Shown: piece after piece, positions 42,921 to 64,000 of the stretch
Layout: every line of letters begins with the position of its first letter
How positions within the stretch are numbered: position 1 is the stretch's first letter
The notes under the pieces: generated by a model
Seen by the model: only the letters and a program-made list of their open reading frames with translations
The model's database searches: none
What the model was told of the DNA's origin: nothing
Position numbers and translations under genes: made by a program
From: Hansschlegelia zhihuaiae
GTDB taxonomy: Bacteria; Pseudomonadota; Alphaproteobacteria; Rhizobiales; Methylopilaceae
Direction of reading: 5' to 3'
DNA length: 64,000 bases
Assembly: GCF_004103825.1 (NCBI RefSeq)
Contig: NZ_RYFI01000011.1
Coordinates: 1-64,000, forward strand

Positions 42921-42995
42921 TGGGGCGTAGCCAAGCGGTAAGGCAGGGGATTTTGATTCCCCCATGCGGAGGTTCGAATCCTCCCGCCCCAGCCA
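42921..42995 (+). tRNA. tRNA-Gln (anticodon TTG)
   Basis: Complete cloverleaf: 7-bp acceptor TGGGGCG/CGCCCCA, D-arm GCCAAGCGGTAAGGC, anticodon stem GGGGA/TCCCC around loop TTTTGAT with anticodon TTG, and a T-arm GGAGG-TTCGAAT-CCTCC. CCA is encoded (42993-42995). It carries the start of an accessory region immediately downstream. Confidence 0.97.
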
Positions 42996-43000
42996 GACTT

Positions 43001-43021
43001 TTTAAGTCATTGATCTAACAC
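43001..43021 (+). repeat. Left imperfect direct repeat of the tRNA-Gln island
   Basis: This 21-bp segment (TTTAAGTCATTGATCTAACA and one more C) lies 5 bp after the tRNA CCA and matches 18 of 21 positions of 47681-47701. It may be a recombination (att) site or a duplicated junction. Confidence 0.5.
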
Positions 43022-43049
43022 AAGTTTCAACTTTTTTTTGCGAGATTAT

Positions 43050-43075
43050 CCGTAACACATGCCCGTATGTTACGG
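43050..43075. promoter_or_regulatory. Inverted repeat upstream of the Rad50-like gene
   Basis: CCGTAACA (43050-43057) and TGTTACGG (43068-43075), a perfect 8-bp inverted repeat with a 10-bp spacer, about 170 bp before the ATPase gene. No U-run follows, so an operator is more likely than a terminator. The region 43022-43243 is otherwise gene-free and AT-richer than its surroundings. Confidence 0.4.
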
Positions 43076-43243
43076 GCCTCGACCGTGAGACGCGCTCGAG
43101 GTTTGCAGCGCCTGCTTGTTTATGGCGGGCGTCCACGGTCATTGAGTTACCCCCAGCGACCGCGCGTAGTGCGCTTGAACAACGGCCATTGCAACCTAGC
43201 ATGCGTCTCCGAAGCGCCATGTGCGCTTTTCGGGGTAGCGACA

Positions 43244-46200
43244 ATGAACCGACTGACCAAGCTCGAGATCCAGCGCGCCCTGCTAGCTGGCAGAAAGGTG
43301 GAATGGACAAACGCTGATGGGAAACGCGAAGCCATAGAACTGAAAGAAGCCGCTCAGAGGCGCTTGCTCGCCTATCTCGCAGGGTCATCGGTTCGAGATG
43401 CCAAGGGGCTTCCTGACGAGTTCATCGACGGGCTTTCTAGCGCCTTCACGGCAGAGGATGACCCGGCCACTGACATCAGCGAAAACGCGGTGGCGGCACA
43501 GACCGGACCTTGGCGCCTTCAAAAAATTGAGACGGAAGGGTTTGGTGGGCTCAACACGTGGAATGGGCCCCCATTCAGCTACGAATTCGACACTGAAAGT
43601 CTAATCCTTCAAGGACCCAACGGCAGCGGGAAGTCATCCCTGATCGGGGCCATCCTCTGGGCTATGACAGGAGAGCGCCCCCGAGACCACGATACGGCAC
43701 AGCCAGTCGTGCGCGCAGAGGTCTACGATAGCAACAATCGGAAGATCGGGACATGGCCGCCGATCGCTTGCTACCCGGACGCACCTAGCGGTCTCGTCGG
43801 AAACCCGCTGGTTCGCGTCACCCTTACGTTTCAAGATAGCGCTGGGACTGCCGCGCTAGTCGAGCGGCGCTTAGAGGGCGGTGAGGTCACTTACAACTGT
43901 GACCCCGCGCTGAACGCTCTCGAAGTCCTCGCTGAGACCGGCCTCCTCATGCCGTCTCGTATGCCGCGGATACGTTTTGAGAAAGGGCAGACGCCACTCA
44001 CGCAAGCGGTCCAAACGCTTACCGGTTTGGACGACCTGATCGACGTCGGCGCACTTGTTGAAGGCCTTTGCCACAAAGGGCGCGAATATCTCGCGACCAA
44101 TCAAAAGCAGGTTCATACTAACAAGAGCCTCTTCGAAGCGGCGCTTTCTGAGGCACAGCGCGCCATAAAGCCGACCGGAGAAAGTATATCGGCATACCAA
44201 CCAAATGATACATCTGACGTAGACGGCCCCTTCGCGCGTCTTGGCAAAAGATTTCGCGAACGTGCAGCTGAATTAACTCAGGTGATAAGTGACGACCTCG
44301 CCGAAGGCCTTGATCTAAGAACGGTTAACGTCCAGATCGACGTTGCCGGCGCGATCGCCATCGCAAGGGAAGATTTGGCAACAGGGCTATATACGATCCC
44401 AACTTGGAAGGCATTATCGACTCTGAGATCAGCACTGGCCGGAGAGGCTAGGACGCAAGTTCAGAACGCAGCAACTACTGCTGAGTCAGCGTTAGCAGAG
44501 GCCGTTGACCTCGATGCGAGAACACAGAGTGATACAAGATTGCAGCTCAAAGCGCTGGCCGCGCATTGGCACGAAACGCATAAGGGCGGGCACGAGCTTA
44601 CTGATTGTCCCCTATGCGAGAAGATACTGGACGACGCGGCCCTGCGGGCGGAGATGGAAGCTCTGCGTCGAAGCGGAGAAGCTGCGACACGGCAGCTCAC
44701 TGATAACCTCAATGCCATTCGAGCGCGCCTGACATCAGCTCTACCGGCTGAAATAAGATCGCGGCTTGCCGAGTTCGCATCGCTTGCTCCTCGCGAAAGC
44801 ATGCTAGCCGACCTCAAAGCGCGCCTAATCGACAAGCCACGCGTTAAAAGCACGCTAGCAACGTTCGTTCGCTTATCGATTGAAGCATTCGAGGCCGCGC
44901 CGCAGCCCGAACTCGTTTATTTAGCCAGCGCCCCCAACGACCCAACCGCGGCCGACACAGTTCGCATAGAAATCGCAGCGGCTCTTCGACTGATCTCGCT
45001 CGAGAAATGGTTCATCGATAATTCCCAAGCATGGAAACTCTGGTGGGAGCAAGCTTTAGATGGCGGTGTCGGATCGTCATCGACTTATGACGACACCAGC
45101 GGAGATGACGCGCCCAAGGAGACATTGGCTCAACATCTGTCGAGGCTCTCGGGCGCAATCAGCGAGGCCGAACCCTATCGCTCTGCTGCTGACGCGTTAG
45201 GAAGAGCTTGGATCTCTGGCCGGGATACAGACAGATATCAGAAAGCCCAGAACGAGCGCGAGTCTATCGTAGAGAGCCTCACGCCGCTGAAGCGCCTCGG
45301 CGTCTTAGCTGAAGCTCAAGCACGCCTGGCGATCCACACGTTGTCCGGAGAGATCGCTGCAATACTAGAACGAATGCACGAGTCTGAGCGATTTTCTTTT
45401 AAGGGAGCTGACTTACAGAAGAAACTCGGGCTTCAAGTTCATGGCGGCTTCGTCCCCTCCATTAAGATTGACGCGACGCTGGTGGCGAATACGTCATGGC
45501 TCCGCGCGGTGCTCTGGGCATTTCTGTTCGCGCTGCGCGCCGAGGCTGTGAAGCAGATCGGCAGTGACCCGCTTCCGCTACTCATTCTTGACGATCCGCA
45601 AGCAACTTTTGATGCCGAACATCGATTGCGTTGGGCGATGGAAATTGTTTCGCTTCAGCAGGCAACAACACCAATTCAAGTTATTTTAGTTACTCACGAT
45701 GAAATATTCGTCGAACTTGTAAAGAACGTTCATGGCATTGTCGGGCGAGAAGGGATTATTGTATCTGCCGGCCCGGAAATTGGGCACATTGGCGTGTTCG
45801 AGGGTGCCGCGTTGGAACGAAGGTGGGCGAAGACGCAGACTGAGAACACACCGGCCGCGGCGCAAGTCTACATCAGCGACGTCCGCGTCTACGTCGAGGG
45901 CCTCATGCGTTTGATGTTGAGAGGTCACGCTGCCGATGTTGCCTGGGTGACCCATGGTTTCGTTATGGGAAAAGCGCGGGACAAGGTGCGCGAGCTGCAT
46001 GCCGCGAAACTCGCCCCTTGGGATAAGTCAGAATTCCATACTCTTGTTGGGAGGCTCGACCAGGGAATTGACGCAATCAAGTTCCTTGAGATGTCGCATC
46101 ATGCCGGCCGCACTACTTTAGCGATGGCTGAAGCGACTGTTGTAGAAGCGCATTGGCGAGGCAAACTTGAGCCGGCCTTGAGACGCTCCTTCAGCCTCGC

Positions 46201-47086
46201 GCGAGATCACTTCCTAATCCACGGTGGGCTTAGGGCACTGCATGCTAATGATCCAGCTTGCGATCTTCCAGAGGGATACACCGATAAGGTCAAGAACCTG
46301 CTGCGCTTCCCGCTGCGTGGCCGTGCAGCAGCGTTAAGCGGTGGATTGGCGGCAGACGGCCGTGTCGACCTCGACCTGAATGCTTCGAGCTCGAGCCCAC
46401 TTGTGCTTGGACGTCACTTTGCTTTCAGACTGCTAGCACCGACGATCGAGCCCGTTGCGCGAACTGGAGACGTCCTGCTCGTCCGAGAGATTGGCGATAT
46501 TTCGCCCAAGTCCCTCGTTGTTGCTCGCTGCGAGGCACGTGTGGTCGCACGTCGCTTTGAGATCGCAGATAATCACAGCGACATTGCAGTATTGACGGCA
46601 CACTCTGTCAATCCAAGGAAAATATCTCAACCGATTGTTATCAAAAGATCTACGCTCGAGCTCCACAAGATAATCGGCGTTCTATTCGATTACAATCACA
46701 TTAACTCAGTCGGAGAAGCAGAAGTCGGCGACTGCGGCGGCGAAAGTGCTCTCCAACGCTTCGCGATAGAGATCAAGGGACTAGTCGAGGTGTCTGGCCA
46801 GAGTGCTGAGCCTATAGCTCTTGATGGGCAAATGCTGATGATCGGCGACGCGGTATCGCCGACCCACGCGCTAACGCGGCTGGAGGGGCGGCCAGTCATC
46901 GCTGGTGACGGCAACGATGCCCGCTATTTCAAACGTTTGCGACGAGGTGAGGCAAATACCGTCGTGCTGGAAAGTCTCGAAATCAGCGGCGACTTCCCCC
47001 CAGTCGTCCTCACCTATGAGACCGGGCAGATGACCGATCTTAAGGAAGTATGGCCCGTCCACGGCATTCTTTTCGAAAGGCCCTAA
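43244..47086 (+). CDS. Rad50/SMC-like ATPase fused to tandem LexA/S24-like domains
   Basis: A 1280-residue protein; ATG 43244 follows GGGG. Residues 1-100: unrecognised basic N-terminus. Walker A is GPNGSGKS (124-131); a long helical middle contains a zinc-hook-like CPLC (455-458); Walker B is LLILDDP (779-785) followed by VTHDE. This is the layout of Rad50/SMC ABC-ATPases, although no clear LSGGE-type signature is seen (ANTSWLRAVLWAF occupies its place). After a linker (880-1050) come two LexA/S24-peptidase-like segments. The first (about 1058-1150) has Thr1067 and Ala1102 at the Ser/Lys positions; the second (about 1175-1280) has SGQS1187AEP and FK1230RL, an apparently intact dyad. Codon use and GC are visibly lower than the core. 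Function inferred only: DNA sensing tied to a peptidase, perhaps phage defence. Confidence 0.8.
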   Translation: MNRLTKLEIQRALLAGRKVEWTNADGKREAIELKEAAQRRLLAYLAGSSVRDAKGLPDEFIDGLSSAFTAEDDPATDISENAVAAQTGPWRLQKIETEGFGGLNTWNGPPFSYEFDTESLILQGPNGSGKSSLIGAILWAMTGERPRDHDTAQPVVRAEVYDSNNRKIGTWPPIACYPDAPSGLVGNPLVRVTLTFQDSAGTAALVERRLEGGEVTYNCDPALNALEVLAETGLLMPSRMPRIRFEKGQTPLTQAVQTLTGLDDLIDVGALVEGLCHKGREYLATNQKQVHTNKSLFEAALSEAQRAIKPTGESISAYQPNDTSDVDGPFARLGKRFRERAAELTQVISDDLAEGLDLRTVNVQIDVAGAIAIAREDLATGLYTIPTWKALSTLRSALAGEARTQVQNAATTAESALAEAVDLDARTQSDTRLQLKALAAHWHETHKGGHELTDCPLCEKILDDAALRAEMEALRRSGEAATRQLTDNLNAIRARLTSALPAEIRSRLAEFASLAPRESMLADLKARLIDKPRVKSTLATFVRLSIEAFEAAPQPELVYLASAPNDPTAADTVRIEIAAALRLISLEKWFIDNSQAWKLWWEQALDGGVGSSSTYDDTSGDDAPKETLAQHLSRLSGAISEAEPYRSAADALGRAWISGRDTDRYQKAQNERESIVESLTPLKRLGVLAEAQARLAIHTLSGEIAAILERMHESERFSFKGADLQKKLGLQVHGGFVPSIKIDATLVANTSWLRAVLWAFLFALRAEAVKQIGSDPLPLLILDDPQATFDAEHRLRWAMEIVSLQQATTPIQVILVTHDEIFVELVKNVHGIVGREGIIVSAGPEIGHIGVFEGAALERRWAKTQTENTPAAAQVYISDVRVYVEGLMRLMLRGHAADVAWVTHGFVMGKARDKVRELHAAKLAPWDKSEFHTLVGRLDQGIDAIKFLEMSHHAGRTTLAMAEATVVEAHWRGKLEPALRRSFSLARDHFLIHGGLRALHANDPACDLPEGYTDKVKNLLRFPLRGRAAALSGGLAADGRVDLDLNASSSSPLVLGRHFAFRLLAPTIEPVARTGDVLLVREIGDISPKSLVVARCEARVVARRFEIADNHSDIAVLTAHSVNPRKISQPIVIKRSTLELHKIIGVLFDYNHINSVGEAEVGDCGGESALQRFAIEIKGLVEVSGQSAEPIALDGQMLMIGDAVSPTHALTRLEGRPVIAGDGNDARYFKRLRRGEANTVVLESLEISGDFPPVVLTYETGQMTDLKEVWPVHGILFERP

Positions 47087-47090
47087 CGGA

Positions 47091-47657
47091 TTAGCCAGAG
47101 GAGAGATGTCTTTGTAAGGCGCGTGACAAGGTCGAAGGCGAAATGCTGAAGAGCCGCGCAACCTCAGCCCAGCTGCGACCCTGAGTGAGTTGCTCGCGAG
47201 CGAGGGCTACTCTGTCTGGAGTCATGAGCTGGGGGCGCCCAACATGCCGCCCGTCGCGCTTCGCTGCCATCATGCCTGCGACGACGCGCTCTTTGATCGA
47301 TTCGCGCTCGAATTCGGCTAGCGCACCTAAAACGTGGAACAAAACCCTTCCACCCGCGGTGGCTGTGTCTATCGTTTCGGTGACGCTCTTCAAGTGTGCG
47401 CCCTTGTATTGGATCTCGTCGGCGGTGTCTACCAATTGCCTCATGCTGCGACCCAGCCGGTCGAGACGCCAAACGATCAACGTGTCGCCCTTCTCCAGTG
47501 CAGCGAGAGCGTTCTTGAGCCCGGGTCGCTTCGGGTTGGCGCCGGAGGTGGTGTCGCTGAAAATTTCGGTGACGCCGATGTCTGCAAGCGCATTGCGTTG
47601 GAGAGCTGGGTCCTGATCGACCGTGCTGACCCTGACGTAGCCGATGGTGCGCGACAT
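47091..47657 (-). CDS. Serine recombinase (resolvase/invertase family)
   Basis: A 188-residue site-specific recombinase. Catalytic Ser in GYVRVSTVDQDP, then LQRNAL, FSDTTSGANPKRPGL, LIVWRLDRLGRSMRQLV, and the E-helix LAEFERESIKERVVAGM; the C-terminal helix-turn-helix is RSWAEVARLFSISPSTLSRAL. This is the Tn3-resolvase/Hin/Pin size class. It converges on the Rad50-like gene (4 bp between stops) and reads out from the right repeat; probably the mobility or resolution gene of the island. ATG 47657 chosen over an upstream TTG. Confidence 0.93.
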   Translation of the reverse strand: MSRTIGYVRVSTVDQDPALQRNALADIGVTEIFSDTTSGANPKRPGLKNALAALEKGDTLIVWRLDRLGRSMRQLVDTADEIQYKGAHLKSVTETIDTATAGGRVLFHVLGALAEFERESIKERVVAGMMAAKRDGRHVGRPQLMTPDRVALAREQLTQGRSWAEVARLFSISPSTLSRALQRHLSSG

Positions 47658-47680
47658 TCTGCAACGACCCTTTTGCAAAC

Positions 47681-47701
47681 TTTAAGTTACTGATCTAGCA
47701 C
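47681..47701 (+). repeat. Right imperfect direct repeat of the tRNA-Gln island
   Basis: A 21-bp partner of 43001-43021 (3 mismatches), just upstream of the recombinase start. Together they bracket 4.68 kb containing exactly the Rad50-like and recombinase genes. Confidence 0.5.
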
Positions 47702-48037
47702 GCTCCCGGAATGGTTGCAAAAGGTAGTCCTTTTGACATTCGCAGGAGAGAGTCAGACAAATGGTGCGGAGGTCGAAGTCCTAGAAAAATTTAATATGCT
47801 TGATGGGGTTCGAGTATGGGTCCTGTTGCCCCAGAGTTCATCCTTGGATCTAGCCGACAACCATTTTGGTTAGTCCCGAGTGTAGGTCGAGTAGCATGCG
47901 AGTCTCATCGAAAACGGCGTTTTCGAAAAGTGGGCGCCCACGCGTCGACTCTGATCCTTGGATCCTCTTGGCCAAAAAAAGTTCTCGGGCATCCGCGATA
48001 CCCTCGCGGGTGCGGAACTTCGCTCTCTTTGCGTCGC
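47702..48037. other. Gene-free region right of the island
   Basis: 336 bp of mixed composition with no credible gene. It contains a 19-bp palindrome at 47908-47926 and several short GC hairpins near 47990-48010. Probably a scar between mobile segments. Confidence 0.5.
47908..47926. repeat. 19-bp palindrome TCGAAAACG-G-CGTTTTCGA
   Basis: Two perfect 9-bp arms around a single central base. Such symmetry suits a dimeric protein site or a recombinase subsite; role unknown. It lies about 250 bp from the serine recombinase start. Confidence 0.4.
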
Positions 48038-49238
48038 CTACGTCGCGCGTCCTCGGGACCCGAGCGATCGACCGGCGCGGAACATGAGCACGAGGGCCAG
48101 CAGGGCGTTGCCCGCCGCGGCGACCGCCAGCGCGACCAGCACGATCCGGGGCTCGAGGGCGGTCAGCGCGAGGCCGGCGGCGAAGGGCGCGGCCGACCGC
48201 CTGATCAGGTTGGGCGCCGCCAGCCGCCCATCACCACCGGGTAGCGCGCAGCGCTGAACAGCGCGAGCGGGACCGTGCCGCGGGCGATCGACCACACGCC
48301 GTTCCCAGCCGCATACAGCACGACCGCGACAGCCGCCGGCGCCGCCCCGAGCGCGAGCAGCATGACGCCGACAGCGACCAGCCCGCCGCGCAGGCAAGCG
48401 TCACGGTGGGGTGGAACCGGTCGCCGACCAGCATCTCGACCACGCGAGCCCCGACCTGCGACGGCCCGATCAGAGCGCCGACCGCGACGGCGGCGGCGAG
48501 CGCCATGCCCTGATTTTGCGGGATCGTAAGCAGGTGCACCGACACCGTCTGGACCGCGCCATTCGCCATCAGGATCGCAGCCAGCAGCAGGAACGACCCG
48601 CGCTCGCCGGGGGGCGACCGGTGGTTGGTCGTGGTGTCGTCCGCCGCTGGAGCCTTCCGCGCTTCCCGCGGCAGCAGGACAAGTAGCGCCGGGGCCATCA
48701 CGAACACCTACGCGGCGGCGTAGGCGAAGCAGGCCCCACGCCAGCCGATGTGTTCGACGGCGAGAGCGGTCAGGGGCCAGCAGACAGTGCTGGCGTAGCC
48801 GCCGAACAGGGTGAGATTGGTGATGGCGCACCGCGCCGACGCCCCGAAGATCCGGCCGAGCGTCGAGAACGCCGCGTCGTAGAGCCCGGCGCCCATGCCG
48901 ACACCGAGGACGACCCAGCCGAGGAGATAGCTCACAAGCCCGGTCGAGGAGCCGACCGCGGCGAGCCCGGCGCCCATCAGGAGCGACCCCGCTGCCATTG
49001 TCGGCCGCCCGCCGAAGCTGTCGATCATCCGGCCTACGAAGGGCGACACGATCCCGGCACAGAGCAGCCCGACCGACCCGCCGCCGACCACCCACGCGAT
49101 CGGCCATCCCGTATCGATGGACATCGGGGTCGCGAGCACGGCGAGCAGGTAGAAGCTTGAGCCCCACGACAGGATCTGCGCGACCCCGAGCAGCGGGACC
49201 GCGATCCTGCCGCCCGGCGGCGTCGAGGCCCCGCTCAC
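48038..49238 (-). pseudogene. MFS transporter, degraded
   Basis: The N-terminal half (from GTG 49238: GVAQILSWGSSFYLLAVLATPM, GGRPTMAAGSLLMGAGLA) is followed by an in-frame TAG at 48708-48710, then the frame continues (FVMAPALLVLLP...VHLLTIPQNQG), shifts near 48385 (GLVAVGVMLLALGAAPAA) and again near 48225 (RLAAPNLIRRSAAPFAAGLAL). All three minus-strand frames are used to rebuild one 12-helix transporter of about 395 residues. It lies 3 bp downstream of the truncated arsH, so the two once formed an operon, probably for arsenical export. Confidence 0.8.
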
Positions 49239-49241
49239 GCC

Positions 49242-49516
49242 CTAGACGGCCTGCTTGAGGTTCACCCGCGCTTCGAGCGCCGCGGCGCTCTCCCTGCGCT
49301 CGCTGTAGCGGTCGGTGAGGTGATCCGACAGGTCCCGCGTGAGCCAGGTGAACTTAACCAGCTCCTCCATCACGTCGACCACCCGGTCGTAGTAGGGCGA
49401 CGGCTTCATCCGACCGTCCTCGTCGAACTCCTGGAAGGCCTTCGCCACCGACGACTGGTTGGGGATGGTGACCATCCGCATCCAGAGGCCGAGCACGCGC
49501 CCCAGCGCCTCCTCTT
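49242..49516 (-). pseudogene. arsH: ArsH, C-terminal remnant
   Basis: About 90 residues ending [11 protein letters not shown], with [20 protein letters not shown]...[35 protein letters not shown], the C-terminal third of ArsH, an NADPH-FMN oxidoreductase for organoarsenicals. An in-frame TAA at about 49514-49516 cuts it off; the flavodoxin-like N-terminal part is missing and unrelated sequence follows. Non-functional. Confidence 0.8.
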
Positions 49517-50178
49517 AGTGAAGCGCGCCGCGGCCTACGAGATCCCCGGCGAGGACGTTCAGCCTCTGACCCGGCACGAGAGAACGGCCGCCCGTGTCGG
49601 CGCGCTGCAGCGGGGGCTTCCCAGCGCCGCGTAGAACAAGGAGATCGACTACATTACGGCGGCTTTGTGTTGGATCGGAAAGATCAACGATTTTTTCAAT
49701 TTCAGAAGCAAGTATTTCTGTTGTCGTTGCGGACCGCCGCATGGGAGAATGGCTGACTAGAGCAAATGATCTCAGTTTAGATCGCTCGACCCAACGATCG
49801 TCATGCCCTTTCGGCCTCGCTCGACGACCACGTCGTGGTGAGCCAAACCCCGAGAAAAGACGCCCCTTGGCAAGGGGGAAGGCGCCGCGAGGGCGTCAGG
49901 AAGGGGAAACCGCTCGCGCGGACCCCAGCTAAGGCCAGAAGCTGCCGCCGTGGCGACTGGCACGGCGTTTCGCCCCGAAAGGGGAGAAGCCCGCTCCTTC
50001 GAGGCCGACCGCGGAACCCCGGCCTCGTCCCACCTACTACGGGACAAGGAGTGATCGGCGGTGTGTGAACGGGACCCAGGCCAGAAGGTCGTCTCGGGAG
50101 GCATGGTCTTCGCCCTGGTAGGCGAAGCTATGTCTCCCATCCAGAAGGCCCTCAAGATCACTCATAAGCTTCCAGCGT
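49517..50178. other. Gene-poor scar region
   Basis: 660 bp with no convincing gene. It includes a short AT-rich patch (49635-49720) unlike its neighbours and small open frames without ribosome-binding sites. It probably represents deletion junctions among decayed resistance genes. Confidence 0.5.
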
Positions 50179-50364
50179 CATGGAGCGTCAACGAGGACAC
50201 GAAGCAGCCGGAGCGCGTTGGCGGTTACCAGCACCGTGTCGGCAAAAGATCGCCATCCAGAGCGGCGTAAAGCCGAGGAGGGTCGCGACCAGAAACGCGC
50301 CCTTCAGGCCGAGCGCCAGCGAGACATTGGTTTAGATGTTCGACATCGTCGCCCGGGACAGGCC
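50179..50364 (-). pseudogene. Heavy-metal P-type ATPase (CadA/ZntA-like), C-terminal remnant
   Basis: Minus-strand translation gives LSRATMSNI-stop-TNVSLALGLKGAFLVATLLGFTPLWMAIF, a frameshift in a T-run, then ADTVLVTANALRLLR: the last two helices of CadA/ZntA/CopA-type ATPases. At least one stop and one frameshift are present and the remaining 90% of the gene is absent. Confidence 0.8.
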
Positions 50365-50373
50365 ACAAGCTCA

Positions 50374-50587
50374 GCCACCGTCCGCTACTACGAGCACATC
50401 CGGCTGCTGGCAGCACGGCGGCCCCCGAAGCCACCTCACCGAGGTCGCGCGCAAGATCGTTGACCTTGCTGTGCTGCGCGACGAGCTCCGCGGCATGGTG
50501 CGTCAATGCGGTCACGGGGCGGTCCGCGACTGCCGGATCATCGAGGTTCTTTCGCCTCAAGACGGACTGCCCGCAAAGGTGGGTTAA
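50374..50587 (+). pseudogene. MerR family regulator, internally deleted
   Basis: Begins with ATVRYYEHIRLLA, the MerR helix-turn-helix, and after a frame change continues SHLTEVARKIVDLAVLRDELRGMVRQC...RDCRIIEVLSP, the dimerisation helix and metal-loop of CadR/PbrR/ZntR-type regulators. The middle 50-60 residues are gone. Its position divergent to the P-ATPase remnant matches a former cadR-cadA pair. Confidence 0.78.
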
Positions 50588-50682
50588 GGACACGTTGACG
50601 GCTCGCGGTCACCATCCGATCGCGGAGTCGTGGCGGCCATGGCGCTTGACACCGACCCCTGTTTCCACGGATGCGTTGCAGC

Positions 50683-51084
50683 ATGGACGTTCTGTCGAAG
50701 GCAAGATCAACGCATGCTTGGCGCGTCTGTGTCCGGGTTGCGGTCGCCTTTTGCTTGGTCGTCTTCGGCGTTGGCGACGCCGTCGAGCGCAGCTTCGCGG
50801 GCCACGTCACCATCGAGTCGGCGCTCTCGTATGCGGTCTCGGCCGACGCTTTCGAGGGGATCTCGACTGACCATTCCGGCATCCACGTCGATGGCCAGTC
50901 CGGCGATGTGGACTTGAACGGCCAGGTGGTCGGCCACGGATGCCATGGCTGCGCGACCATTCCCGAGCCGATGCGCTATCTTGCTGCCGCTCCGAACGCA
51001 TTGGCCTCGTCCCCTTCATGGTCCTCTGTGCCCTCGGCTGCGGGACGAGAGCCGCTGGTCGATCTTCCTCCTCCCCGAGCCTGA
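50683..51084 (+). CDS. Small exported or membrane protein at the head of the czc operon
   Basis: About 133 residues with a hydrophobic segment (WRVCVRVAVAFCLVVFGVG) acting as signal or anchor, a polar domain, and a Cys/His motif GHGCHGCATIPEP near residue 85-97 that could bind metal. It reads in the same direction as czcC, 70 bp away. Similar small proteins occur at the start of metal-efflux operons, but I cannot name a family. Start uncertain (50671 or 50683). Confidence 0.55.
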   Translation: MDVLSKARSTHAWRVCVRVAVAFCLVVFGVGDAVERSFAGHVTIESALSYAVSADAFEGISTDHSGIHVDGQSGDVDLNGQVVGHGCHGCATIPEPMRYLAAAPNALASSPSWSSVPSAAGREPLVDLPPPRA

Positions 51085-51155
51085 CCTGACGAAAGCCTAA
51101 GTCCGCGCGCGCGTGAGCGCGCTCGCCACCGCTCGTCAGTTCATCAGGTCAGGTC

Positions 51156-52442
51156 ATGCTTTTCAGAACCCGCGCGCTTGCGCTGGGGGTGGCGATCGCG
51201 CTGCTTCCCGCGCCGGCGACGCACGCCGCGCCCAAGTCTCCAAGTCAGGCTGCGCGGTCGCTCACGCTGTCTCAGGCGCTGTCACGCGCTATCTCCTCAA
51301 GTCCTGCTCTCGCCGCGGCGGACCGGGAGATCGGGGCGGCGAGCGGTCGCAGCCTCCAGGCCGGCGTCTTCCCCAATCCTGAGCTCTCCGCCGAGCTCGA
51401 CAACGCCTTCGGCTCAAAGCTCAAGCGCAACCTCGAGAGCGCCGAGACGACGCTCCAGATCAGCCAGCTGTTCGAGCTCGGCGGCAAGCGCGAGGCGCGT
51501 CTGGCGGTCGCGGCCGCCGAGATCGACGCGGCGCGCTGGGATCGGGCCGCAACACGGCTTCAGGTCCTAGCGGAAGCCACGGAAGCTTTCGCGAGGACGC
51601 TCGGCACCCAGGCGCGCGTCGTGGAGCTGGAAACCCAGGTGGACGATCTGGACCAACTGACCCCGCTGCTGCAGCGGCGCGTCGAGGCGGGCGCGTCGTC
51701 GAGCGCGGAGATCTCTCGTGGTCGTGTCGCGACCGAGACCACCCGCGTCGAGCTCGCCAAGGCGCGGTCGGCGTTCCAGGCCGCCCGGCGCGAACTGTCA
51801 GCGCTGATCGGAGAGAGGATGCCGTCCTTCGCCTCCGTCGGGGGCGACCTCCGCCGCATCGGCGCGCCGCCCCCCTTTGACGCGCTGATGTCGAGGGCGT
51901 TGCAGACCCCGCAGCTCACGCGCTTCACCGCCGTGAGGGCCCAGCGACGCGGCTTGCTCGCTGCGGCGCAGGCCAAGGCCGTGCCTGACGTCACGGCGGG
52001 CGTTGGCTGGCGACACTACCGCGAGGACCGCTCCAACGCGGTCATGGCCACGCTCAGCGTTCCGCTTCCAGTGTTTGATCGCAACCAGGGCGGCGTCATC
52101 GAGGCGAACGAAACCCTGGCGAAGACCGAGGCCGAAAAGGCCGCGGCGCAGCGGACTCTGACGATCCTCGTGGGCAACGCCTACGAGGCGCTGCGCGGCT
52201 CCTACGACGAGGCCCGGCTCACCCGCGCCAATGTCATCCCGATCGCCCGCGAGGCCTATGACGCGGTGCGCTCCGGTTACGGCGAGGGCCGCTACTCACT
52301 GCTCGAGCTGCTCGACGCCCGGGCCGCCCTTTCGGAAGCCTCGCTCAAGGAGATCGACGCGCTCGTCTCCTTCCACTCATCGCTCGCCAGTCTCGAAGGC
52401 CTGACGGGATCTGCCCTCGTTCTGTCCCGGAGAGACAAATGA
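51156..52442 (+). CDS. czcC: CzcC-like outer-membrane efflux protein (TolC family)
   Basis: A 428-residue protein. Signal peptide ending about residue 24 (APATHA-A); two OEP repeats with the helical coiled-coil pattern (LSQALSRAISSSPALAAADREIGAASGR..., and AREAYDAVRSGYGEGRYSLLELLDARAALSEA). Forms the outer-membrane channel of the CzcCBA export pump. The stop overlaps the next gene by 4 bp. Confidence 0.92.
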   Translation: MLFRTRALALGVAIALLPAPATHAAPKSPSQAARSLTLSQALSRAISSSPALAAADREIGAASGRSLQAGVFPNPELSAELDNAFGSKLKRNLESAETTLQISQLFELGGKREARLAVAAAEIDAARWDRAATRLQVLAEATEAFARTLGTQARVVELETQVDDLDQLTPLLQRRVEAGASSSAEISRGRVATETTRVELAKARSAFQAARRELSALIGERMPSFASVGGDLRRIGAPPPFDALMSRALQTPQLTRFTAVRAQRRGLLAAAQAKAVPDVTAGVGWRHYREDRSNAVMATLSVPLPVFDRNQGGVIEANETLAKTEAEKAAAQRTLTILVGNAYEALRGSYDEARLTRANVIPIAREAYDAVRSGYGEGRYSLLELLDARAALSEASLKEIDALVSFHSSLASLEGLTGSALVLSRRDK

Positions 52443-52812
52443 ACGCCGTCGAGACCGCCTGCGCCGCAGGCCTGGCTCTGCTCGCCTCGATGACCGCCGC
52501 CATCGCCGCGCCCGCCTCGACGCCCAGCGTCGTCCCGCTTCCCGATTACGGTGGCGCCTGGGTCTACGACGGCCGCACGCCGCCGACCTGCAACGCCCGG
52601 GACGTCCGCGTCCGCCACTTCGCGGGCGACGGCCATCCCGACACGCACGCCGACCACGCCCATCTCGGCCACGGCCACGCGTGGTCGAAGCGGAACTTCA
52701 AGGGCCAGCCGACGAAGCCGCCCTGCTACGTCCGCCGCGCCTTCCCGCAATCCGAAACCCCGTCAGCCAGCGCGACCGCCGCGACCCGCAACGTCCTGTC
52801 CGGAGACCTGTC

Positions 52813-52816
<4 letters not shown>
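52439..52816 (+). CDS. Small exported His-rich protein
   Basis: A 125-residue protein with a signal peptide (residues 1-23, ...TAAIAAPA) and a mature part with a cluster HFAGDGHPDTHADHAHLGHGHAW that could bind Zn/Cd/Co. Overlaps czcC and czcB by 4 bp on each side, so it is translated as part of the operon. Unknown family; a periplasmic metal buffer or chaperone is inferred. Confidence 0.65.
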
Positions 52817-58215
<5,399 letters not shown>

Positions 58216-58224
58216 GGACGGGCG

Positions 58225-59190
58225 ATGATGACGGCGCACAACGACCATGCCGGACACGACCATGGCGGCGAGGACCATTCCGGGCATGCTCACGGACCAG
58301 GCGGCCACTCGCATGCGCCCGCGAGTTTCGGCCGGGCGTTCGCGATCGGCATCGCGCTCAACACGGCGTTCGTCATCATCGAGGCGGGTTACGGCTACGC
58401 CAGCAACTCCCTCGCTTTGATCGCCGACGCCGGGCACAATCTCTCCGACGTGCTCGGTCTCGTGGTGGCCTGGGTCGCGGCGACGCTCGCCAGGCGGCCG
58501 CCGTCGCCGAGGTTCTCCTACGGCCTGCGCTCGTCCTCAATCATGGCGGCGCTGTTCAACGCGATCTTCCTGCTGATCGCCGTCGGCATGATCACCTGGG
58601 AGGCGATCCAGCGCTTCTCCGACCCCCAGCCCGTCGCCGGCGTGACCGTGATGGTCGTCGCCGCCATCGGAGTGCTGATCAATGGCTTCACGGCGTTCTT
58701 GTTCATGTCGGGCCGAAAGGGCGACATCAACATCAAGGGCGCCTACCTCCACATGCTGGCGGACGCGGGCGTCTCGGTCGCTGTGGTCGTGGCAGGACTT
58801 CTGGTGCTTCAGACGGGCTGGCAGTGGCTCGACCCGGTCGTCAGCCTCGCGATCGCCGCGGTCATCACCATCGGGACCTGGGGCCTGCTGCGCGACAGCG
58901 TGACGATGTCGCTCGACGCGACCCCGCCCGGCATCGACCCATCGGCCGTCGCCGCCTTCCTTCAGGAATGTCCCGGGGTCGATGATGTCCACGACCTCCA
59001 TGTCTGGCCGATGAGCACCACCGAGACGGCGCTCACCGCGCATCTCGTCATGCCCTCGGGCCATCCGGGCGACGCGGCCTTGCGCTCGATCGCCGGGGAG
59101 CTCGGGGAGCGCTTCGGCATCGCCCATCCGACGATCCAGATCGAGCTCGCGACGGGCTCCTGTCCGCTGGCGCCCGCCCATGCGGTCTAG
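58225..59190 (+). CDS. czcD: CDF family cation efflux transporter (CzcD-like)
   Basis: A 321-residue protein. His-rich N-terminus (HNDHAGHDHGGEDHSGHAHG), six helices, metal-site motifs ADAGHNLSD in helix II and HMLADAG in helix V, and a cytoplasmic C-terminal domain (VDDVHDLHVWPMSTTETALTAHL). Exports Zn/Cd/Co from cytoplasm to periplasm, feeding CzcCBA. Starts 9 bp after the previous gene. Confidence 0.95.
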   Translation: MMTAHNDHAGHDHGGEDHSGHAHGPGGHSHAPASFGRAFAIGIALNTAFVIIEAGYGYASNSLALIADAGHNLSDVLGLVVAWVAATLARRPPSPRFSYGLRSSSIMAALFNAIFLLIAVGMITWEAIQRFSDPQPVAGVTVMVVAAIGVLINGFTAFLFMSGRKGDINIKGAYLHMLADAGVSVAVVVAGLLVLQTGWQWLDPVVSLAIAAVITIGTWGLLRDSVTMSLDATPPGIDPSAVAAFLQECPGVDDVHDLHVWPMSTTETALTAHLVMPSGHPGDAALRSIAGELGERFGIAHPTIQIELATGSCPLAPAHAV

Positions 59191-59545
59191 CGTCGGCAAG
59201 ATTATGCGCCATGCCGCGCTCCGGGCGGTAGGCGCCGCGAGGGTGGCCGCGGCGGCCGTGACGATGCTCGCGGTCCTCCTGCTCGCGGTCTCGCATGTCG
59301 AGGCCGACCATGCCCCGGCGACGGGCAAGCAATCCGCGGTGGTCGCCGTCGCGCCTTGTCACACCGCTCCCGTGGGCGCGGTCGGAACCGCGGCGGAATG
59401 CTCGGCGCCTTGCGTTGCGGCGCTGGCCTCCGTGAACGGAACGGCGTGCGCCCTCAGGCTCAGGGCGGAGATCTTTCGGGCCGAGCGCGAATCCTTCAGC
59501 GGCGCGGAGGTCGCCCTCGCGACGCCGCCGCCCCGGATCGGGTAG
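59180..59545 (+). CDS. Small exported Cys/His protein
   Basis: A 121-residue protein with a long hydrophobic N-terminal segment (VAAAAVTMLAVLLLAVSHVEA) and a mature part with four Cys (APCHTAP, AECSAPCVA, GTACAL) and few other features. It overlaps czcD by 11 bp if started at 59180; ATG 59204 is an alternative. Unrecognised. Confidence 0.5.
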   Translation: MRSSVGKIMRHAALRAVGAARVAAAAVTMLAVLLLAVSHVEADHAPATGKQSAVVAVAPCHTAPVGAVGTAAECSAPCVAALASVNGTACALRLRAEIFRAERESFSGAEVALATPPPRIG

Positions 59546-59662
59546 CCGGCCGCCCGGCGGTCAGGCCTCGAGGCCGCCGCCGTCAAACCAGCATCTCCAA
59601 GGCGCGAAGGTCAGCTTCCGGCGAAAGCCGACGGAGCTCCCGCGCGATCCGGAACGACATCC

Positions 59663-60328
59663 ATGATCACGCATGCATCCTGCGCGCACGCCGCGCACCA
59701 AACCGAAGGAACGGAACTGCTGGAGGCGTTGGAAAACGGAGCCGTCTCCCTCCTCGCCCGACGGACCCGCCTCGCGCGGGGGACCCGGCTGGAGCTTCCC
59801 GGCAGGCAGGGCTCGACGCTGGTCCTCGTCTCCGGGCGCCTTTCAGCCGAAACGATCACCTCGGACGGACAGGAGGCCTTCGTGGCCGACGTCGAGCCGG
59901 GCGACGTGATCGGAGAGGCCTTCGCGTTCGACCGCTGCGACACCCCGCTCGAGGTGACCGTCGACGAGACCTCGGAGGCTTGGCTCTTTGACGCGGCTTT
60001 GTTCGCCTCGGCGTTCGAGAGACATCCGGGCTTCGCCAAGGCAGTCGTGCGCGCGATGTGCCGCCGCCAGTGCCGGACGCTTCAGCGAATGTCGGAGGTC
60101 ATGACCTTGCCGATGGCCGACAGGCTGGGGGCGGAGCTGCTGCGACTAGCAGCCTGCGACCCTTCCGGCCGATCGATCGAGCGGCTGCCGACCCACAGGC
60201 GGATCGCCTCGCGGATCGCGACGCAGAGGGAGGCCGTCACCAAGGAGCTGAGCCGTCTGGAGCGCCGCGGGGCGATCCTCAAGGAGCGCCACGGGCTGCG
60301 ACTGGTCGGGCCGAGCTGGAATGCCTGA
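59663..60328 (+). CDS. Crp/Fnr family transcriptional regulator
   Basis: A 221-residue regulator: cNMP-binding-like beta-barrel (TLVLVSGRLSAETITSDGQEAF, DVIGEAFAF) and helix-turn-helix RRIASRIATQREAVTKELSRLERRGAI. The N-terminus has an unusual cluster of Cys/His (THASCAHAAHQ) that might sense metal or redox; it lacks the full four-Cys FNR set. Possible regulator of the upstream czc genes by position. Confidence 0.85.
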   Translation: MITHASCAHAAHQTEGTELLEALENGAVSLLARRTRLARGTRLELPGRQGSTLVLVSGRLSAETITSDGQEAFVADVEPGDVIGEAFAFDRCDTPLEVTVDETSEAWLFDAALFASAFERHPGFAKAVVRAMCRRQCRTLQRMSEVMTLPMADRLGAELLRLAACDPSGRSIERLPTHRRIASRIATQREAVTKELSRLERRGAILKERHGLRLVGPSWNA

Positions 60329-60336
60329 AACTGGTC

Positions 60337-60362
60337 GGGCCAGCCCGGGGGAGGGCTGGCCC
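60337..60362 (+). terminator. Hairpin downstream of the Crp/Fnr gene
   Basis: A perfect 10-bp stem GGGCCAGCCC/GGGCTGGCCC (60337-60346 with 60353-60362) with a 6-nt loop, nine bases after the stop. No U-run, so strength is uncertain; a terminator for the czc-crp region is likely. Confidence 0.5.
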
Positions 60363-60407
60363 TGCGGCTCCGCCGAGGGTTGGAGATCCCGGCGGCGCCG
60401 GTTCGGA

Positions 60408-60608
60408 TCAGCCGCGGTCGGCCGCATCGCTGTCGGTCGCGACGCTGCTGGTCCGCTCCCCCGTGAGGAGGCTGAAGTCCGGCACGCTGTCGTAGAAGTC
60501 GGCGCTGTCGCGCTGGTGCTGGTTGGTCGAGTTGGCCGGGGCGACCTCGGCCTGGGCAACGGCGGCCGACGACAGCAGGACGAGGGCGGCGGCGAACATG
60601 GTCTTCAT
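60408..60608 (-). CDS. Small secreted protein
   Basis: A 66-residue protein: signal peptide MKTMFAAALVLLSSAAVAQA, then a 46-residue acidic mature part (NSTNQHQRDSADFYDSVPDFSLLTGERTS). GGGAG ribosome-binding site upstream of ATG 60608. No family recognised. Confidence 0.6.
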   Translation of the reverse strand: MKTMFAAALVLLSSAAVAQAEVAPANSTNQHQRDSADFYDSVPDFSLLTGERTSSVATDSDAADRG

Positions 60609-60761
60609 CGTGGGTCACTCCCTTGTGGAAGCTCGTCTTGAGCTTGGGACCACGATGCCGGGCCGCCCGGATTCGCCGGGTGGAAAGTCCCACATCCCGG
60701 GACAACTGGACGTGAGCAGGACGTGTGCGAGATTGGACGGCGAATATGGAGGGCGACGCCC

Positions 60762-61226
60762 ATGACGATGGACCGCAGGACTTTCATAGCTCTGGCGGCC
60801 GGAGCCGCGCTGCTCCTTCCACGCCGCGCCGCCGCGGCCCCGGTCATGACCGTCCACAAGGATCCGACCTGCGGCTGCTGCGAGGCCTGGGTCGAGCACA
60901 TCCGCGCGGCAGGCTACGAGGCGCGGGTGACCGAGGCCCGGGCGATCAACGCGGTCAAGGCGAAGCTCGGCGTGCCCGTGGGGCTGAGATCCTGCCACAC
61001 CGCCGAGATCGACATCTACGTGATCGAGGGGCACGTGCCCGCGGCGGCGATCGCGCGGCTGCTCGCCCAGCGCCCGAAGGTCCACGGCCTCGCCGTGCCC
61101 GGCATGCCGGTCGGATCGCCAGGGATGGAGGTCGAAGGTCGAGAGCCGGAGACTTACGACGTGCTGTCCTTTGGCGAAGGGGAGCCGCGGACCTTCATGA
61201 GGTTCAAAGGCAGCGCCTCACTATAA
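60762..61226 (+). CDS. DUF411 metal-binding protein
   Basis: A 154-residue exported protein. Tat/Sec-like signal (MDRRTFIALAAGAALLLPRRAAAA), then the DUF411 signature VHKDPTCGCCEAWVEHI, VGLRSCHTAEIDIYVIEGHVP, RPKVHGLAVPGMPVGSPGME. Members sit in copper and other metal-resistance loci and bind metal through the CxCC and SCHTA residues. GGAGGG upstream of the ATG. Periplasmic metal handling is likely. Confidence 0.88.
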   Translation: MTMDRRTFIALAAGAALLLPRRAAAAPVMTVHKDPTCGCCEAWVEHIRAAGYEARVTEARAINAVKAKLGVPVGLRSCHTAEIDIYVIEGHVPAAAIARLLAQRPKVHGLAVPGMPVGSPGMEVEGREPETYDVLSFGEGEPRTFMRFKGSASL

Positions 61227-61343
61227 TCAGCTAGCATCAAAGGCGATAAAGTCCTAAAAAACACAAATCATCATTTGACGTGTTGTAGAAAGACTGAATG
61301 TGCACGATCATTAGCTTCAGAAACTGAGCGCTTTAGGAGGCTC

Positions 61344-61583
61344 ATGATCAAGAAAACGAATGACGAAGAAAGCGTGACGCTAAATTTTCGAGTAACCGAT
61401 GAATTTCGGTGGATGTATAAGGTTTACGCTGCTGAGAATTCAGTGATGATGAACTGGGTGCTTCAAAGGAGCTTCGAGGTTTACAAGAACCTCGTAGATC
61501 TGGGCATGCTCAACCGCGAGGCCGAGCGCCGCTTGCTTCGTGATCGGTTCAAGACGCCGCAACAGGACGCTCGGGAGGACTAG
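61344..61583 (+). CDS. Small ribbon-helix-helix-like protein
   Basis: A 79-residue protein with a strong AGGAGG site before ATG 61344. The N-terminus has a short strand (SVTLNFRVTDEFRWMYKVYAAENSVMMNWVLQRSFEVY) typical of ribbon-helix-helix DNA-binding proteins on plasmids and toxin-antitoxin loci. The surrounding 61227-61500 is clearly AT-richer than the core, suggesting transfer. It is followed by the HUH-type gene and may regulate it. Confidence 0.6.
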   Translation: MIKKTNDEESVTLNFRVTDEFRWMYKVYAAENSVMMNWVLQRSFEVYKNLVDLGMLNREAERRLLRDRFKTPQQDARED

Positions 61584-61687
61584 GAACGGCTGAGCCCGCT
61601 CGCGGCGGAGCGGAAGGTGGAAGTTGGTGGACCAATGCCAGCGCACGAGATACCCGACGCACCCAAATCGATATTCGAGTCGTCCGC

Positions 61688-62209
61688 ATGCTGCCACCCC
61701 TGCGCCTGCCCCTAGAGAGTCGAGCCGAACTTGTTGAGTGGCTGAACAAGCACGGCTTCACCCGGTTCGTGACCCTCGCGACGAACGACCCCTCTCTATC
61801 GTCCGTGGCTGAAGCCGTTCGGGCCTCGACGCCCGGCGCCGATCGTCTCACGACGCTGGTGCGAAGGTGGGACGCTCACATGAACCGAGCGGTCGTCGGG
61901 CCGAAATGGGCAAAAGGCATCTACCGGTGCGATCGTCTGTTCGCCTGCTACTTCCTAGAGAAGCCGGAGGCAAACCCCCACTGGCATGCGCTGGTGCGGA
62001 TCGATGATCAGAATCCCGCCCGGCGTTCGGCCAAGCTCTCGCGTTTCGACGAACTCGTAGACGTGAAGTGGAAGGAGTTGATCAGCTCGGGATCCACTGA
62101 TGTTCAGCCTATCGCAGACCGCCTCAGGGTCACAGACTATGTTGCGAAGGAGCTAGGAAACCCGCTATCATATGAACGCATGATCGTTGCAGACCAGTTT
62201 AGTCGGTGA
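61688..62209 (+). CDS. HUH-type replication/relaxase-like protein
   Basis: A 173-residue protein with the three motifs of HUH endonucleases: motif 1 FVTLATNDP, motif 2 H98-W-H100 in PHWHALVRID, and motif 3 Y151-VA-K154 in DYVAKELG. HUH enzymes nick DNA and stay covalently bound through the Tyr in rolling-circle replication, conjugation or transposition. Small size suggests a plasmid Rep or an IS200/REP-associated-like enzyme; no origin was identified nearby. Start has no clear ribosome-binding site. Confidence 0.65.
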   Translation: MLPPLRLPLESRAELVEWLNKHGFTRFVTLATNDPSLSSVAEAVRASTPGADRLTTLVRRWDAHMNRAVVGPKWAKGIYRCDRLFACYFLEKPEANPHWHALVRIDDQNPARRSAKLSRFDELVDVKWKELISSGSTDVQPIADRLRVTDYVAKELGNPLSYERMIVADQFSR

Positions 62210-62485
62210 CGTCGCGTCCATGATCAACTGCATCCGACCCGTTTGCTGAGCTACGGGGGCGCGCGACAGATCAGGTTTTTCCGAAGGGGCCATTGTCGCG
62301 GGGACGCCTGCGGCAATGGCAAAGCTCACCCTCAAGAGACCTTCTTCACCAGACATACCCTAGATCGGACATAGAAGCCCACGGGCGGGCGTTGAGAGGG
62401 GGGCGCGTAGCGCGACCCGACGACGAACGACCGCCGCCCGAAGGGCGGAACCCTTTTTACTGACGCTGCGCCGCGGGAGAAGCAG

Positions 62486-62710
62486 GTGACTCTGTTCAAC
62501 ATCGAGGTCTTCGACGCCCTGCTCGACGCGGGCATCTCGGAGGACAAGGCGAAAGCCGTGGCGGTCGCGTTGACGCCCCAGCCGCCCGGCTCGTCACACC
62601 AGCCGATCATCGGCGATTTCGCTGTCTACGACAGCCTGCGCGCTGCGGGCGTTTCCGATGAGAAAGCGAGAGCCTGCGCGATCAGTTGCCCCACGGCCCA
62701 AGGGCGCTGA
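62486..62710 (+). CDS. Small protein with an internally duplicated helical motif
   Basis: A 74-residue protein with GTG start and GGAG site. It contains two copies of one motif: FDALLDAGISEDKAKAVA and YDSLRAAGVSDEKARACA, about 38 residues apart, each resembling the N-terminal part of small coiled-coil mobile-element proteins (DUF1640-like), but without the coiled coil. Function unknown. Confidence 0.55.
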   Translation: MTLFNIEVFDALLDAGISEDKAKAVAVALTPQPPGSSHQPIIGDFAVYDSLRAAGVSDEKARACAISCPTAQGR

Positions 62711-62772
62711 CGTTCGCTCTTACCCTTCTGCCGATGCATTAGAACGCCGGAGCGCGCATCCAGCAAAGGAGT

Positions 62773-62815
62773 GGCGCCCGGCGACTCAGCGGGCGCCGCT
62801 GGTGGCGTTTTCGAC
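62773..62815 (+). terminator. Hairpin after the small duplicated-motif gene
   Basis: An 8-bp stem GGCGCCCG/CGGGCGCC (62773-62780 with 62790-62797), followed 10 bp later by GCGTTTTCG. Weak intrinsic-terminator features on the plus strand, facing the convergent HNH gene. Confidence 0.4.
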
Positions 62816-62878
62816 GTCGAGAGCTACCCATGCAGCTCCGCGCCGCGGCGGCTGCTGGTGACCTTCTGAGCGACCGCC

Positions 62879-63820
62879 TCAATCGGTGAGCGCGAGACCC
62901 GACCATTTCAAGTGCGCGGCGAGAGACTGCGGACTTGGCGTGAGCGCCTGCGCGGCGGGCCTGGTAATCGGCCTGCCGGCGAAATCCGCGTAGGTTGTCC
63001 CCCTCAACGCGTCGGCGATGACCACGAAGCCGTTGGGGTCCACGGCAAGGAGCCCGAGATCGAAGAGATTATGGAGGTCAGCGCGAAGTAGGAGGCCGTT
63101 ACGGGGGTCATTCGACGCGGTGCCGGTGTAACGCGCGATGTGCGCCGCCTCGAGCGCCTCAGGGGCGTCACAGCCGCTGATGGCGCACTTCCCCTCGTAG
63201 GCCTCCAACAGTCTCGCCCGAAAGACCGGCTGTCCCCGGCGTCGGACCACCTCGGCGACGCGTCGTTCGCGTTGGTCGGTCAGCGCGGCCAGATCGAACT
63301 CGTCGACGTCTTCTCCGGCTAGCGCCGTGCGCATCTCCATGGCGCCGCGGTCGCCCTCGTAGCTCGTCAGTTCGAACAAGCCGGCGTCCCAGCCGATCAC
63401 ACTGGCCAGACCAAGCAGGTCATACGCCACCCCAGGCTTGGGCTTGTTCTGGATGAGAACGCCCACGGGCACGCCGTCAGCCATGCATTGCATCAAGCCC
63501 CGGTTCGTTGCTTCTCGATCGCGCTGGCCCGGGTCTGGGTTCTCCTGGAAATAGCGGAACGTCCAAGAACCATCATCATGACGCTCGAGGGGCCGGTCGT
63601 CGTAGGGGCCACCTAACGTCTGGCGCACGGTGAGAGCATAGTCCGGATAGCCCGAGGGCCACTTCGGCTTGTAGATCCCCTTCGCCTTCGTCACGAGGCG
63701 AACACCGAGTTCGGGAAACGCGTTGTCCATCTCCGACCACGAGACGCTTCGGCCCGAATTCGCCGCCAGCCATGTCAGAGCGCCGCGGTGGACGTCACTG
63801 ACATCTAGATGTTCAAGCAT
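62879..63820 (-). CDS. HNH endonuclease with N-terminal recognition-like domain
   Basis: A 313-residue protein; ATG 63820 has AGGGAA upstream (a GTG at 63907 is an alternative). The N-terminal domain (about residues 35-150) has GIYKPKWPSGYPDYALTVRQTL and GSWTFRYFQEN..DPGQRDREATNRGL, with GVLIQNKPKPGVAYDLLGL next, as in SRA-like restriction proteins. The C-terminal HNH nuclease carries CAISGCDAPEALEAAHI (His), NDPRNGLLL (Asn) and DLHNLFD (His). Likely a methylation-dependent restriction enzyme or defence nuclease; the methyl specificity is inferred only. Confidence 0.82.
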   Translation of the reverse strand: MLEHLDVSDVHRGALTWLAANSGRSVSWSEMDNAFPELGVRLVTKAKGIYKPKWPSGYPDYALTVRQTLGGPYDDRPLERHDDGSWTFRYFQENPDPGQRDREATNRGLMQCMADGVPVGVLIQNKPKPGVAYDLLGLASVIGWDAGLFELTSYEGDRGAMEMRTALAGEDVDEFDLAALTDQRERRVAEVVRRRGQPVFRARLLEAYEGKCAISGCDAPEALEAAHIARYTGTASNDPRNGLLLRADLHNLFDLGLLAVDPNGFVVIADALRGTTYADFAGRPITRPAAQALTPSPQSLAAHLKWSGLALTD

Positions 63821-64000
63821 TGCGTTCCCTACAGTTGCCCGACCTGGCACCGTAAGCGGCAAATCACTTAACTCTAGGGGCTCACGTGCTGAACGTGTCC
63901 CTACCACCTAACACGTCGAGCGACCCCACAAGTGTGTCTGGCCTATGTCGCCTGAGGAAGATGAGAATGTAGCCTCAGGTCCAAAACCCGACCGGCCCGC
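63821..64000. other. Upstream region of the HNH gene
   Basis: 180 bp to the window edge. It should hold the promoter of the HNH gene; no gene or repeat can be supported. Confidence 0.5.

Follow-up and report, generated by a model that had tools for sequence, protein, structure and literature searches.

A gene in a 64,000-nucleotide (nt) stretch of the Hansschlegelia zhihuaiae contig NZ_RYFI01000011.1 (the whole stretch is hereafter called the window) encodes a protein of 1,280 amino acids (aa) in which a Rad50/LmuB-like ATPase is fused to two LexA/S24-like domains. We put at about one in two the probability that this protein is a one-protein defence system, a sensor-protease directed against phage or plasmid DNA. 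The gene occupies 43244..47086 (+ strand, stop codon included) within an open reading frame (ORF) that spans 43067-47086 (+); the start at 43244 is preferred since homologues align from there. The whole architecture is covered by no single Pfam, PADLOC or NCBIfam model, and a promoter and terminator scan gave no more than chance.

Conservation is given below as counts among 16 aligned full-length copies, which are 19-46% identical to the window protein, most of them only about 20%, and which are not independent, as some are close to each other (e.g., L045 and L061, about 82% identical). Left out of the alignment were L005, a near-duplicate of L001, L067, which has no annotation, the broken or partial L003, L041, L047, L059 and L066, and records with an unfetched region.

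A Rad50/SMC-type ATPase half

The ATPase half is related to LmuB and Rad50 profiles and is of the Rad50/SMC type. The window protein matches the Pfam families SMC_N (6.9e-11) and AAA_23 (1.7e-7), and the profile of the 16 homologues, searched against solved structures, matches Rad50 at 3e-12 and LexA at 1.2e-4, in agreement with the fusion of a Rad50/SMC-like ATPase to LexA-type domains that an initial annotation had read from this DNA. All 16 homologues match the PADLOC model of LmuB, PDLC03859 (best 8.6e-19; window protein 1.1e-15), the full match being limited to the ATPase part, and 15/16 match the PADLOC model mad3.

The motifs that had been placed by eye at residues 124-131 (Walker A), 455-458 (CPLC) and 779-785 (Walker B) are borne out by the alignment. 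Walker A (GPNGSGKS; 43613..43636, on the + strand, as are all parts of the gene) has its Lys130 conserved in 16/16, the CPLC hook (44606..44617) has both cysteines in 16/16, and the Walker B sequence LLILDDPQ (residues 779-786; 45578..45601) contains a DDPQ (783-786) that is likewise invariant. The hook sits halfway between the nucleotide-binding motifs: in the window protein, Lys130 and Asp783 are each 325 residues away from it, and in every homologue it lies near the midpoint. An NxSxLRA motif at residues 749-755 (45488..45508), with Asn749, Ser751 and Arg754 in 16/16, probably represents the ABC signature. The residue that follows the Walker B aspartate is Asp784 in all 16 sequences, at the position usually taken by the catalytic glutamate in ABC ATPases. 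LmuB proteins generally have a glutamine instead of glutamate in Walker B, which the excerpted text of PMC10586767 takes as a sign of low or no hydrolysis.

A tandem of dead and intact LexA/S24-like domains

Following the ATPase, a linker region (residues 852-1044; 45797..46375), with a near-invariant HH at 952-953 and helical in a low-confidence model, leads to two domains, D1 (residues 1045-1152; 46376..46699) and D2 (residues 1150-1280; 46691..47083). Compared profile to profile with a set of 30 sequences of relatives, LexA and further S24 members (one of them, L070, in the wrong frame), D1 reaches 95.3% with a score of 51.0 and D2 95.5% with a score of 54.0, far above the maxima of 17.8 and 17.4 obtained from 60 column shuffles of each, none of which reached the real score. 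The two domains are also alike (hhalign, 91.7%). For D1, Pfam Peptidase_S24 gives 9.6e-5 at residues 1066-1131 of the window protein, narrowly short of the cut-off; the single-sequence Peptidase_S24 hidden Markov model (HMM) matches this domain in 15/16 homologues (E up to 1), and the D1 profile matches LexA among solved structures (4.8e-4).

That two LexA/S24-like domains stand in tandem, as first read, is upheld, with the correction that D1 is without the catalytic lysine in 16/16. The LexA alignment places an arginine of D1 upon the LexA lysine; the residue here is Arg in 15 sequences and Gly in one, and the serine position is occupied by Thr in 10, Ser in three, Asn in two and Ala in one. 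Ser1187 (codon 46802..46804) and Lys1230 (codon 46931..46933) of D2, the pair already named in the initial annotation, align with the serine and lysine of LexA, are present in 16/16 and account for two of the six invariant columns of the domain; we predict that they act as nucleophile and general base. With the lysine missing from D1 and the pair kept in D2 throughout the alignment, the tandem would consist of a dead and an intact copy: D1 looks like a pseudo-peptidase, and only D2 could be catalytic, as a predicted protease.

Distribution and neighbourhood of the homologues

The family is rare, sparse and scattered, and it is mobile and not core. Confinement of the homologues to conserved core loci, which the initial annotation had named as incompatible with its proposal, was therefore not found. 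With the window protein as the tblastn query, 15 plasmid records matched, four of them with one place covering at least 80% of the query; two homologues used as queries each retrieved the identical 26 of 72,556 plasmid records, 25 of them alphaproteobacterial (rhizobia and relatives, Sphingomonas, Croceicoccus, Methylorubrum, Azospirillum) and one from Pseudomonas. Whole genomes searched with the window protein matched in 4/385 of the class and 6/397 of the order, and the C-terminal profiles found 5/385 genomes of the class and 3/398 of the phylum, some of these being fragments; its own genome is counted each time. Twelve further genomes of the genus lack the gene, 50,697 phage records yielded no match, and no relative was confirmed in viral contigs or by a pattern search of genome contigs with a single protein, the same type of search with a 10-sequence alignment returning at least one locus. 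Some copies are damaged. Those of Phyllobacterium and B. barranii are each split into two coding sequences (CDS), one match in R. leguminosarum has a transposase annotated inside it, seven related Bradyrhizobium records have many short CDS at the match (one record viewed), and one genome copy has an internal stop.

The plasmid homologues sit in defence islands. A PADLOC search with a threshold of 1e-15 finds 64 families among the 97 ORFs of at least 150 aa whose midpoints fall no farther than 7.5 kb from the gene around 10 plasmid copies, as against three families among 95 ORFs of control stretches, which were picked by coordinate from the same 10 plasmids at a distance of about 40 kb or greater; one protein may match several families in this count, and a second SMC gene accounts for the matches to some ATPase models. 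Twenty neighbours near plasmid copies were also picked by hand and searched at a PADLOC threshold of 1e-8. RT_UG17 and a SLATT partner adjoin the Pseudomonas copy in this set. Shedu and an IetS-like peptidase are neighbours in Methylorubrum; AbiJ, a CorA-like protein and PDC-S05 in Azospirillum; PDC-S37/Hhe and DarTG in Mesorhizobium AR10; SngB in M. huakuii; AbiEii in B. quebecense; and IetS in B. barranii.

In Azospirillum (L065, 8672-15531), the gene is flanked on the same strand by the CorA-like gene (12-bp gap) and by VPA1262/PDC-S05 (32-bp gap), and this trio is perhaps an operon in that lineage.

Proposed mechanism and alternative explanations

The more specific proposal, which we hold tentatively and at somewhat less than even odds, is that an SMC/Rad50-type sensor of foreign DNA, by its ATP-driven closure, directly activates a Ser-Lys protease of LexA type that its dead twin otherwise restrains, the whole forming an undescribed one-polypeptide immune system. 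The Rad50/LmuB-like heads and the coiled coil would dimerise via the hook and detect DNA ends or structures, in the manner proposed for LmuB and Rad50; here these would belong to an invader, whose replication intermediates are a further candidate. Aspartate in place of the catalytic glutamate would make ATP turnover slow, which would suit a switch. Until closure of the heads frees, pairs or rearranges D1 and D2, the protease half would stay off, the lysine-less D1 serving as a built-in partner or inhibitor of D2; D2, through Ser1187 and Lys1230, would then cut a host or phage protein or its own chain, and this cleavage would stop the infected cell or the invader. Since no constant partner gene is seen beside the homologues, the most likely target is either a protein of the host or phage or the sensor-protease polypeptide. 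We infer the dimerisation, DNA recognition, ATP kinetics, protease activity, target and immunity of this scheme from the comparisons above.

Several observations weigh against such a defence role. The lack of a constant partner is one of them; another is the window copy, which has no defence neighbours, so that the survey for defence islands suggested in the initial annotation has a positive outcome for the plasmid copies but not for the gene from which it set out. Six of the 20 hand-picked neighbours are without a PADLOC hit at 1e-8, including all three of the Rhizobium NXC24 locus, a kinase/phosphatase/VWA trio. Near genome copies, no more than two ORFs of ten look defence-like (an Mrr-type nuclease and a NERD-helicase), the remaining eight being transposases, an oxygenase or proteins without a Pfam match. 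Profile searches on the separate parts, also suggested at the outset, succeeded for the ATPase and for D1 but were weaker for D2, which taken alone is weakly S24-like, with an HMM match in only 4/16 homologues (best 6.3e-5; E up to 1); the D2 profile, run against the PDB, gave chance matches only and retrieved no LexA chain. Among the 16 sequences, neither the D1-D2 linker nor the stretch before Ser1187 has a conserved self-cleavage dipeptide. Finally, the proposed structural check for a LexA fold cannot decide the matter: the models, each made from the window protein and one relative, are poor, with a predicted local distance difference test (pLDDT) of 37 and 40, and Foldseek with the latter ranks LexA chains 1-5, none significantly (best E 0.055), which at this model confidence lends the fold weak support.

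Among the other explanations, the one that survives best, though we consider it unlikely, is a plasmid or island maintenance or competition factor. The protein would then be a Rad50-like repair protein acting together with SbcCD-type nucleases, either on the DNA of its carrier or against competing plasmids; the LexA domains would regulate it as a switch, and it would have no anti-phage role. An SbcD or YhaO-type nuclease does lie near 6/14 plasmid loci (the six are not all independent), and two copies are near repABC genes; but such a nuclease is found at none of nine genome loci, window included, its types differ, the one used as a query occurs also on other plasmids without the gene, and defence genes are the stronger neighbours. 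At four loci the nuclease is accompanied by a second SMC-type ATPase beside or near the gene (L060, 14058-19079; L062, 13988-18204; L003, 9354-14110; L061, 1-3210).

Less probable again is a damage-response switch on the pattern of LexA and UmuD: RecA filaments would induce the LexA-type domains to sever the chain, and the ATPase would thereby be released or destroyed. The matched fold is that of LexA and the Ser-Lys pair is conserved, and the initial annotation had allowed for either a defence or a damage-response role. The plasmid islands speak for the former, whereas the lack of a conserved cleavage dipeptide between the domains and the absence of a LexA-type box in front of the gene (judged by the usual consensus) leave the latter with less support than defence; the Pfam results for the window protein also include no DNA-binding helix-turn-helix (HTH) domain. 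The least probable of these explanations is a protein that works only as an ATPase sensor, its LexA-like domains being scaffolds and not proteases. The loss of the D1 lysine and an SAxP in D2, as against SM in the LexA sequences compared, can be adduced for it, while Ser1187 and Lys1230 stay unchanged in 16/16 sequences despite the low identity of most to the window protein.

A possible insertion unit in the window

The gene follows a tRNA-Gln (TTG; 42921..42995, + strand, tRNA scan) and is followed by a small serine recombinase of 195 aa on the opposite strand (47091..47678, - strand; Pfam Resolvase, 7.1e-43). The initial annotation had recognised a serine recombinase here, to which we add that it is of the small resolvase/invertase type, and had described the gene as the only cargo between the two. 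Between these two markers this holds, as all other ORFs of at least 80 aa overlap the gene in other frames. A 22-bp direct repeat (left copy 43000..43021, right copy 47680..47701, both listed on the + strand; 18 of 22 identical) brackets the gene and the recombinase, and none of 300 shuffles equals it; the repeat pattern has no other match in the genome at up to three mismatches. Within the repeats the recombinase, which matches no PADLOC family, is the only other gene, and neither LmuA nor LmuC is found there. The lower guanine-cytosine (GC) content noted at first sight is confirmed, being 0.562 at 43000-47950 as against 0.702 at 1-42900 and 0.673 at 48000-64000. The gene and recombinase between the repeats may form an insertion unit.

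The 11 relative sequences all diverge from the window shortly past the CCA of the tRNA-Gln. One, L035, has part of the repeat motif after its tRNA-Gln, so the left copy may be an old target. Six of six relatives, followed about 14 to 17 kb past the tRNA, show no likeness to the right side of the window, except for one 117-bp match (L048); since the DNA after the tRNA-Gln differs among the relatives examined, the variable region may run past 48000, beyond the single-gene cargo first described. A tRNA lies in the scanned stretch of 5/8 genome loci (window, L044, L045, L046 and L047; three are tRNA-Gln) and 1/14 plasmid loci, a count that omits the 3.8-kb L041. An exact repeat of the tRNA 3' end, as an attachment site, was not found. 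An imperfect 18-nt match (78%) to the tRNA-Gln T-arm, perhaps due to chance, lies at 47765-47782, close to where the low-GC stretch ends on the right.

Farther right, a transporter-like gene (MFS by reading; 48231-49238, - strand) appears as two ORFs and is perhaps disrupted, its DNA being found elsewhere in relatives, and two ORFs at 51156-54492 read like metal efflux parts, the second with a long His/Asp/Gly-rich repeated stretch. At the Rhizobium NXC24 locus (L001, 22819-31235), His-Xaa-Ser maturase genes and the kinase, PP2C phosphatase and VWA trio come after the homologue.

Comparison with known systems

Rad50/SbcC are the closest solved ATPases by profile and share Walker A, Walker B and a mid-chain CxxC hook with the window protein, which differs in its Asp-Asp in Walker B, its LexA-type C-terminus and a window without an Mre11/SbcD gene. 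LexA and UmuD (peptidase family S24) resemble both C-terminal domains by profile, and D2 in its Ser-Lys pair; they differ from the dead and intact tandem seen here, which is fused to an ATPase and has neither an HTH nor a conserved cleavage site. In the nuclease-protease pairs known from AVAST, Hachiman, Lamassu and DRT, a protease is likewise fused to a defence sensor, a precedent in defence for such fusions with a different protease fold (PMC12799240, in the excerpted part); those proteases, as described there, are trypsin-like and have an upstream partner nuclease gene, whereas the type here is S24 and no constant partner is seen.

Lamassu is close in its ATPase, as the LmuB matches, the hook motif and the altered catalytic position in Walker B show, and protease effectors are known in some LmuA (excerpt of PMC10586767). 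In the window protein, however, the putative effector domain is fused to the ATPase with no LmuA or LmuC gene beside it, its predicted fold is S24/LexA and not the trypsin type, and the protein's length is about 1,280-1,380 aa across homologues as against about 650 for LmuB in the same source. LmuA and LmuC are also absent among the first 25 of the 64 PADLOC families around the homologues. Because these two genes are missing, assignment to Lamassu was rejected, and we file the protein, from its sequence, as a putative variant of the SMC/LmuB-type defence kind. We recognised no account of an SMC/ABC ATPase fused to an S24/LexA domain in a literature coverage that is partial and does not establish absence from print.

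If the proposal of a one-polypeptide sensor-protease is correct, LexA-fold peptidases would be immune effectors, beyond SOS repressors and polymerase subunits, and an immune sensor of SMC type would have acquired, as its own internal effector, the peptidase fold of the SOS response and of phage repressors. Because one chain would then hold both sensor and effector, along with a natural dead and intact pair of protease domains, single point mutants could be used to test how Lamassu-like sensors gate their effectors.

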